A stretch of DNA of 64,000 nucleotides from Halorussus vallis (lineage in GTDB: Archaea > Halobacteriota > Halobacteria > Halobacteriales > Haladaptataceae). Both the position numbers and the translations under genes were made by a program. Location of the stretch: NCBI RefSeq assembly GCF_024138165.1, contig NZ_CP100000.1, positions 62,001 through 126,000 on the forward strand, read 5' to 3'. Positions 10,638 through 21,528 of the stretch are shown one piece after another. Under the pieces are notes generated by a model. That model made no database searches, had not been told where the DNA came from, and saw nothing but the letters and a program-made list of their open reading frames with translations. Each line of letters starts with the position of its first letter. Positions within the stretch are counted from its first letter, which is position 1.

Positions 10638-10789
10638 ACTTCGAGGGGTGACGCTACGGCGGATAAATCTCTCGGTACTCCGATAGGGACGAGTCTACGT
10701 TTCTGTGGATGCGTTTACGTTTCCAAGCGTAGAATCGATAGAAGGCGCGATTGACGGCGTCGTCGAGACGAAGCGCGCAAATCACGACT

Positions 10790-11047
10790 CAAATGAGTAC
10801 CGAACCTCGTCCTCCCCAGCCGATTCTCTCACGCGGAACGTCGAACCCACGAGGGGTGCGACCGCGCGCGCCACGACAGCTGTGGAGATGCGCGATACTG
10901 GGCTTGGGTCACCGGCGCGCGCTGGCGCGGCTCGCGGTTTGAGCCGCGTCAATGCGTGCGAGGGACGACCGAGTGCCCGCAGGGCACGACGGAGTCGGCT
11001 GGGGAGGCGTGTGGCCGTGGCGGTGCGGTACTCATTTGCATCGTGCG
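10790..11047. repeat. Palindromic non-coding repeat element, copy 1 (MITE-like)
   Basis: The 574-bp gap between the divergent mvaD (start 10637) and nth (start 11212) holds no gene but contains this element. Its ends are inverted repeats: CAAATGAGTACCG (10790-10802) is matched exactly in reverse at 11026-11038. Further in, CTCCCCAGCCGATTC (about 10812-10826) is matched at 14 of 15 positions by GAGTCGGCTGGGGAG near the right end. The centre has GAGGGGTGCGAC-GCGCGCGCCAC and GCGCGCTGGCGCGGC blocks, which recur in the copy at 21.1-21.4 kb. No transposase frame is present. Bases 10638-10789 and 11048-11211 show only promoter-like sequence. Confidence 0.7.
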
Positions 11048-11211
11048 AGCAGGACGCTTCGGTTGACCAGAAGCCGTTTCACGGAGTGCAAGTAGGACGG
11101 TTCAACTCGACATGGTATCGTTCGCGTTCCCGAGAACTCCAGAGCAACCACGAATCACCCTCCCGAGGGCAACGAACAAGATTCAAACCGCCACCACCCG
11201 ACGACGCTACT

Positions 11212-11898
11212 ATGGGAGAGCCACTCGAACCGCGCGAAGCCCAAGTCGAAGAGGTGCTGGACAGACTCTACGAGGCCTACCCCGACTCGACCATCTCGCT
11301 CAACTTCTCGAACCGACTCGAACTCCTCATCGCGGTGATGCTGTCGGCCCAGTGCACCGACGAGCGGGTGAACAAGGAGACCGAACACCTCTTCGAGAAG
11401 TACGAAACCGTCGAGGACTACGCGAACGCCGACGTCGAGGAACTCTCCGAGGAACTCGGCTCCATCACCTACCACAACAGCAAGGCCGACTACATCAAGT
11501 CGTCCGCCCAGGCCATCATCGACGAGCACGACGGCGAGGTGCCCGACACGATGGAGGGGTTGACCGACCTGAAGGGCGTCGGGCGCAAGACCGCCAACGT
11601 CGTGCTCCAGCACGGCTACGACACCGTGGAGGGCGTCGTCGTCGACACCCACGTCCAGCGAATCTCGCGGCGACTCGCCATCACGGAGGAGGAGACGCCG
11701 AAGAAGATGGAGCGCGACCTGATGGAGGTCGTCCCGAAGGAGCACTGGCAGCAGTACACCCACCTGTTCATCAGCCACGGCCGGGCGACCTGTACGGCCA
11801 TCAACCCCGACTGCGACGACTGCGTGCTCGAAGACATCTGCCCGTCCTCGAAACTCGACCACGAGATAGACCTCGCCGACGGCGAGCCCTGGGACTGA
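11212..11898 (+). CDS. nth: Endonuclease III (DNA glycosylase/AP lyase)
   Basis: A 228-residue base-excision repair enzyme removing oxidised pyrimidines. It has the helix-hairpin-helix LKGVGRKTANVVL with the catalytic lysine, VDTHVQRISRRL with the catalytic aspartate, and a C-terminal [4Fe-4S] loop with exact C-x6-C-x2-C-x5-C spacing (CTAINPDCDDCVLEDIC). The frame is open for 169 residues further upstream, but that extension runs through the palindromic repeat, so MGEPLEP at 11212 is taken as the start. Length agrees with archaeal Nth. Confidence 0.94.
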   Translation: MGEPLEPREAQVEEVLDRLYEAYPDSTISLNFSNRLELLIAVMLSAQCTDERVNKETEHLFEKYETVEDYANADVEELSEELGSITYHNSKADYIKSSAQAIIDEHDGEVPDTMEGLTDLKGVGRKTANVVLQHGYDTVEGVVVDTHVQRISRRLAITEEETPKKMERDLMEVVPKEHWQQYTHLFISHGRATCTAINPDCDDCVLEDICPSSKLDHEIDLADGEPWD

Positions 11899-20948: not shown

Positions 20949-21106
20949 CAATCTCTCATTCCTCCCCATCCCTGAAAAGGGTACGGAGTCGACGCTGGGA
21001 GTCGGGCTCGATTGCTGATGTGAGTGTGGCCGTATCTTTCGCAGGGGAAGTGGCCGACCGGGCTGCACTGCGACTCGAACGACGACAACGCCGCAAACCG
21101 CCCCAC

Positions 21107-21400
21107 TTGCACGATGCAACTGAGAAATCGCACCGCGACAGCCACAGACCCCCCCAGCCGACTCCTTCGCACCCCTGCGGGGCGCTCAGTCGTCCCTTGT
21201 GCGAGATTGTCGCACCCACGAGGGGTGCGACTGCGCGCGCCACGTCGGTGTGGAGATAGGCGAGACTGACCAGTGGTGATGGCGCGCGCTGGCGCGGCCC
21301 TGTGCCGCGCCATCTTCGTGCGAAGGATGAGCGAACGCAGTGAGCGAATCGGCTGGGGAGGCGTCTGGCTGCGGGTGCGGTGCGGTACTCATTTGTACCG
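21107..21400. repeat. Palindromic non-coding repeat element, copy 2
   Basis: This occupies most of the 599-bp gap between the NAD-kinase-like gene (start 20948) and the M28 peptidase (stop 21548). The left end (TTGCACGATGCAACTGAG) is the complement of the right flank of copy 1. The right end has GAATCGGCTGGGGAGGCGT and CGGTGCGGTACTCATTTG, as in copy 1. The centre shares the CGCACCC-ACGA-GGGTGCG hairpin and the GCGCGCTGGCGCGGC block. The inverted ends are less perfect than in copy 1. After it, 21405-21460 has GAGTAGCGGTC twice, and a U-tract terminator for the peptidase lies at about 21529-21535. Bases 20949-21106 show nothing clear. Confidence 0.7.
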
Positions 21401-21528
21401 TGTGAGTAGCGGTCACTGTCGCGGCAGCAGTTTACGAGTAGCGGTCGCTGTTGTCGCAGCGGTCCGGCTACCGTCACGGAACAGCAACAACGTATTTACA
21501 GTATCGCCTCGCCACCGAAATCTGCACT

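Follow-up and report, generated by a model that had tools for sequence, protein, structure and literature searches.

A covarying two-hairpin intergenic repeat of haloarchaea, arranged in inverted doublets and resembling bacterial REPINs

Two copies of one repeat family in the analysed window

We analysed a 64,000-nt stretch of Halorussus vallis DNA (hereafter the window), taken from the main contig (3.96 Mb) of a genome of 5.05 Mb. The window contains one non-coding family twice, at 10790-11047 (copy 1) and 21104-21408 (copy 2). Copy 1 is flanked by the genes named in a preliminary description of the sequence, encoding diphosphomevalonate decarboxylase (mvaD) and an HhH-GPD endonuclease III-like protein (nth). 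That description held that copy 1 encodes no protein, and our analysis agrees: the 397-aa open frame across it is an upstream extension of nth, whose start was placed at 11212 by codon scoring. The nth frame stays open far upstream through copy 1 (window 10705-11211), so that automatic start calls may put the nth start inside the element.

The inverted sequences and the shared interior described for copy 1 were all recovered. Exact 13-bp terminal inverted repeats (CAAATGAGTACCG) match 10790-10802 with 11026-11038, and a nested inverted pair (CCTCCCCAGCCGATT) matches 10811-10825 with 10993-11007 at 14 of 15 positions, 13 of them contiguous. Copies 1 and 2 aligned at 75% over 210 bp (E=2e-35). 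Copy 2 also matched copy 1 in reverse orientation, at 82% over 89 bp; matches in both orientations are expected of an element made of two inverted half-units. The terminal motif GTACTCATTTGNATCG occurred five times in the window (≤3 mismatches), compared with 0.43 expected in shuffled sequences, and four of the five matches were ends of copies 1 and 2. The copy 1 stretch also folded far better than its shuffles (z −7.0). A covariance model of the half-unit, R1, was built from 32 units, with E-values from a short calibration. The two copies have the following parts.

10785-10802, no strand assigned: copy 1 left outer end, carrying CAAATGAGTACCG as inverted end; 13 bp are repeated exactly, in inverted orientation, at 11026-11038; terminal motif
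10800-10872, minus strand: copy 1 left half-unit, which is degenerate and has lost hairpin A; R1, 37.5 bits, E=1.5e-6
10873-10913, no strand assigned: copy 1 asymmetric spacer between half-unit tails, 41 nt; aligned with doublet spacers, which measure 38-42 nt in 21 of 26 cases
10914-11019, plus strand: copy 1 right half-unit, with hairpin B (GCGGTTT loop), hairpin A and TCGGCTGGGGAGG; R1, 89.3 bits, E=5.9e-18
11020-11047, plus strand: copy 1 right head extension and outer end (GCGGTACTCATTTGCATCGTGCG); terminal motif exact; runs on into GTGCGAGCAGGACGCTTCG
21104-21136, minus strand: copy 2 left head extension and outer end; terminal motif at 21112-21127, 3 mismatches
21137-21241, minus strand: copy 2 left half-unit, complete; R1, 91.2 bits
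21242-21280, no strand assigned: copy 2 spacer, 39 nt
21281-21373, plus strand: copy 2 right half-unit, complete; R1, 92.9 bits, E=9.5e-19
21374-21408, plus strand: copy 2 right head extension and outer end; terminal motif with one mismatch at 21385-21400

The half-unit, its fold and its doublets

Alignment of the copies revealed that the repeating object is smaller than the full element. It is a half-unit of ~105 nt, in the order GGCGCGCGC, hairpin B, GCGCGAGGG, hairpin A and TCGGCTGGGGAGG, and the full element consists of two half-units placed tail-to-tail around a ~40-nt spacer. The inverted ends of the element thus result from two inverted copies of a self-contained two-hairpin unit. BLASTN with copy 1 gave 56 matches in the host genome, and the covariance model detected 130 half-units at E≤1e-5. 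These form 99 sites: 70 with a single unit, 26 (-,+) pairs and three other clusters. All 26 (-,+) pairs were tail-to-tail, with a tail-to-tail distance of 38-42 nt in 21 of them, and no (+,-) pair was found among the host sites. The doublet spacer is asymmetric and conserved. Left and right halves of doublets are of different types and singles resemble right halves, indicating that doublets are inherited, directional composites. Mean identity was 0.764 between singles, 0.749 between right halves and 0.728 between left halves.

The arms of one doublet were 0.704 identical, versus 0.717 for arms of different doublets. Sharing a doublet thus does not make two arms match better, so what is conserved is the fold within each half-unit, and one giant cruciform was rejected on this basis. 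The earlier suggestion of a fold-back repeat is therefore retained in part: the family is dispersed, non-coding and intergenic and has fold-back potential, but it is not a single large fold-back.

Double-sided changes were found in 14 of the 23 pairs of the half-unit. Double-change cells numbered 105, compared with 32.3 in shuffles, with 96% of the cells paired, and this covariation signal collapsed in slid controls. Hairpin A is composed of 2-bp covarying steps alternating with tandem G·A steps, the latter being kept in 83, 76 and 52 of 104 units, whereas hairpin B has a variable stem and a loop of the type YTYRT or GCGGTTT. On the half-unit strand, paired columns contained 101 G·T and 17 A·C in the model-fitted alignment, which favours G·U pairs and overstates the asymmetry; in an unguided alignment the ratio was about 29:10. 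Left, right and single units had this tendency alike. The difference in folding energy between strands was no more than base composition predicts, and strand-specific folding energy was discarded as a signal. The argument about strands is consequently carried by G·T versus A·C, which could also reflect RNA, and this ratio is suggestive of a strand-specific fold.

Half-units of several species carry a nested twin-hairpin module of ~50 nt (GGCTCGGARGACGCGGTTTGTCYTCCG and an adjoining hairpin), situated at either of two fixed places, in the loop of hairpin B or between hairpins B and A. Examples (loci are given by our L numbers and genomes by our G numbers, the host being G000) are L006 about 1750-1805, L026 about 1540-1640, and L106, L092 and L098 (mvaD-nth element). 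Separately, on the head side, a segment of ~24 nt between two inverted GCTAGCT ends of adjoining elements was flipped between two close genomes (L252 vs L255).

Genomic setting, distribution and evolution

Genes were called with our own simple codon-usage script. All 45 sites with flanks in hand (45/45) were intergenic, with diverse flanking genes that were divergent at 13 sites, convergent at 10 and tandem at 22. Single units had no preferred direction relative to genes at these 45 sites; a transcription terminator or UTR element as the main role was dismissed because gene orientation was unbiased. The position of copy 1 between divergent genes had suggested an effect on the promoters of mvaD and nth. 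This idea found no support, since the sites had no bias to divergent flanks, and promoter-proximal motifs were alike in Halorussus genomes with and without the element. The main chromosome carries 96 of the 99 sites (P about 1e-7 for an even spread), at uneven density along its length. No replichore pattern was detected, with 34 runs observed against 34.2 expected, and a replichore-coded signal was accordingly rejected. The 74 neighbouring proteins matched 112 Pfam families, none of which occurred in more than two, and there was no transposase among the 25 families listed beside the 45 sites.

Other repeats were seen around the elements. The head side of some elements is extended outward by directional repeats; GTGCGAGCAGGACGCTTCG, a motif of ~19 bp, has 29 occurrences in the host genome (≤3 mismatches), most of them next to heads and often with a spacing of 44-45 bp (L012 about 1380-1534; L007 1670-1800; G000:C1:2609987-2610094). 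Other species have different head-side arrays, such as one of 33 bp x 6.4 copies that abuts the element in G006 (L099 2637-2847). Single units often lie beside or between another inverted repeat (CCCCTTTCAGTCC, GGACTGAAAGGGGCCG; L016, L017, L027, L063, L079, L080), and other dispersed hairpin-rich sequence (TTTTTTGGTCCAG, TTTTTTCGAGGAGCGG, GACGAAGAAAAAAGGTGG) occurs near single units (L011, L014, L022, L026; L092, in the mvaD-nth region of G017).

A search of haloarchaeal genomes, which the preliminary description had proposed as a check, found many relatives of copy 1, in 29 of 40 sampled related genomes; half-unit matches occurred in 9 of the 19 genera of this sample. Copy number within one genus was patchy, from none to >90: one complete congener had no match and another had five. 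In an even draw from the phylum, searched with stricter filters, 10 of 197 genomes were positive, all ten of them in the same GTDB order. Scanning named genomes with a pattern gave only Halobacteria among the matches listed, which included Natrinema, Natronococcus, Halosimplex, Haladaptatus, Halococcus, Halogranum and Halolamina, and also Haloarcula japonica. We take the matched genera to represent three orders of the NCBI taxonomy, Halobacteriales, Natrialbales and Haloferacales; the family is present in all three haloarchaeal orders. Viral contigs and phages gave no family match, and the four plasmid records with a match were all haloarchaeal, on which basis a virus or plasmid origin was rejected. 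No Rfam 15 family matched above its gathering score. We found no description of the repeat family in open-access literature text, although one may exist elsewhere.

The region between mvaD and nth was readable in 16 Halorussus genomes, with absence judged by reading. A doublet was present in G000, G001, G006, G007, G011 and G017 and a single in G008, while G003 had seemingly kept only the outer ends; the element was missing in eight of the 16. Arms at this locus were 0.66 identical between species, compared with 0.70 for arms at different loci. The maximum identity among 63 host units was 0.94, with none at 0.95. Two genomes that are 93% identical, G004 and G014, had five sites in common in an aligned 400 kb and differed at at least two. 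Their orthologous half-units evolved more slowly than the adjoining DNA, differing at 11.3% versus 16.6-18.5% in intergenic flanks, with much scatter between sites. Whole hairpin tips had been exchanged between these genomes with stem pairing kept.

At nine sites where G010 carries the element and G013 lacks it, the two genomes differed by large intergenic replacement, and an unoccupied allele was as short as about 20 nt. Target duplication, the mark of insertion that had been proposed for such comparisons, was not apparent by eye in these nine pairs, in which flanking intergenic DNA had diverged. In both the G004/G014 and the G010/G013 comparisons this DNA was too diverged to give exact junctions, and none of the compared genomes revealed a clean insertion whose ends could be defined. 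Decayed remnants suspected at two unoccupied G013 sites were unsupported by the covariance model.

Relation to known repeats and candidate explanations

Among known systems, the bacterial REPINs, REP doublets and BIMEs come nearest to the repeat. REPINs and REP doublets are extragenic, occur in ~100 dispersed copies, form inverted doublets with a fixed spacer, also exist as singlets and undergo compensatory hairpin changes (Bertels and Rainey 2011, PMC3116915). Similarly, the haloarchaeal repeat is extragenic and dispersed in roughly 100 copies, forms inverted doublets with a fixed spacer as well as singlets, and has hairpins with compensatory changes. By contrast, its unit is ~105 nt long with two hairpins, whereas REPs are 20-40 bp with one hairpin; its singlets are no less conserved than doublet arms, i.e. 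not decayed; its host is archaeal; and a Y1/RAYT transposase is not needed in the genus. In REPs, GTAG is located 5' of the hairpin; here it is found 3' of the unit, close to the far outer end (CAGTAGCTAGC), and many copies lack it. Three features of REPINs were thus found (inverted doublets with a fixed spacer, extragenic location and compensatory changes) and two were not (decayed singlets and an associated Y1/RAYT transposase), so we refer to the repeat as REPIN-like and do not file it as a REPIN.

PF01797 (Y1_Tnp) was not found in the element-rich genomes G001, G002, G003 and G011, and Y1_Tnp presence does not track the element across genomes. A REP mobilised by a Y1 transposase was rejected for the genus, given the absence of Y1_Tnp from element-rich genomes. 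The host itself has an IS605-type element, consisting of a Y1 transposase and a downstream TnpB-like frame (G000:C1:1724435-1724797, L031); no half-unit was seen at its ends.

Among haloarchaeal elements, the PATEs of Haloquadratum walsbyi resemble IS605 ends and have near-terminal palindromes and no inverted ends; the SMRs of the same species are about 80-110 bp, mostly >95% identical and with a target preference, and their mobilisation is unexplained (PMC3119063). Like PATEs and SMRs, the repeat is haloarchaeal, transposase-free and palindromic, with heterogeneous copies and no apparent target duplication. Unlike PATEs, it has inverted ends, and the host IS605 ends are unrelated to it by eye; unlike SMRs, its copies are about 74% identical and all checked sites are intergenic. 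These contrasts are with the published descriptions of the Haloquadratum elements. Like the present repeat, GTAG- and CGTC-tagged repeats of bacterial phyla are palindromic and intergenic, and their stems contain G·T pairs and alternative residues that remain complementary (PMC3733652). The repeat shares the lack of a dedicated transposase with the CGTC-tagged repeats (PMC3733652), but both tagged kinds are much shorter single hairpins, described in bacterial phyla.

With a probability of about 0.5, we regard the family as a REP/REPIN-like structured intergenic repeat of haloarchaea that is ancient, was once dispersed by some factor, not a Y1 transposase, and is now mostly inherited vertically. 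The functional module would be the ~105-nt half-unit, a single strand of which is predicted to fold into a closing stem, hairpin B and hairpin A, followed by TCGGCTGGGGAGG and the outer end. A nuclease or recombinase acting in trans, distinct from Y1 transposases, might recognise such a folded single strand, possibly as ssDNA, and could formerly have carried the repeat from one intergenic region to another. Present copies would then reflect mostly vertical inheritance, occasional loss and structural constraint. Against past dispersal stand the lack of any copy pair at 95% identity and of a clean insertion with defined ends. Moreover, no mobilising gene was found among the neighbours of the sites, which are diverse, and ssDNA transposition on the lagging strand would predict a replichore strand bias, given simple replichores; none was found, which counts against it. 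A further proposal, which we make tentatively, is that the repeat represents an undescribed haloarchaeal structured-repeat class, found in all three orders, whose folded strand (DNA or RNA) is recognised by a non-Y1 protein and which has been domesticated into a constrained chromosomal element.

The main rival is an RNA function, in which the half-unit would be transcribed and would function either as a small RNA or, within UTRs, in stabilisation or processing, with a protein bound to its hairpins. An RNA-like character is suggested by the strong covariation, the tandem G·A steps, the conservation of apical loops, the extra helices that some units carry at fixed junctions, and the excess of G·U over A·C on one strand. 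Nevertheless we consider it unlikely, because units have no orientation preference relative to genes, and one doublet arm is always antisense, yet the G·T bias is found in both arms. In addition, no conserved promoter-like A/T box was seen, by reading, upstream of the tails of singles, an Rfam match is absent, and the strand energy difference is not above composition.

Bacterial BIMEs bind gyrase and IHF. By analogy, the repeat might be a chromosome-organising DNA site, where protein binding to hairpins, extruded or single-stranded, would serve compaction, supercoiling or segregation. The concentration of sites on the main chromosome (96 of 99; P about 1e-7), the intergenic, orientation-independent and constrained copies, and the iteron-like arrays beside some heads point in this direction. 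Such a role is nonetheless rather improbable in view of one complete congener without a detected copy and another with five, the uneven density along the chromosome and the pairing between doublet arms, which is not conserved.

MITEs are short, non-coding and intergenic and have inverted ends, as does the repeat. The preliminary description likened copy 1 to a MITE. A classical MITE, whose outer inverted ends would be the substrate of a DDE transposase, would explain those ends and the dispersed, intergenic copies, but this reading is highly improbable: 70 sites have a single unit and hence lack one end, structure is conserved inside each half and not across the ends, outer ends vary between species while the core is conserved, target duplication is not apparent at the nine occupied/unoccupied sites, no copies exceed 95% identity, and neither a transposase nor a transposon was seen next to copies.

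REP/REPIN repeats have been described as bacterial and tied to RAYT transposases; here, a class-wide archaeal repeat follows the same doublet logic. Its larger, strongly covarying unit without RAYT dependence raises a question open to experiment: which factor recognises the fold, and is its target DNA or RNA? The family accounts for many long palindromic intergenic regions in haloarchaeal genomes, and can mislead gene calling, as at nth.
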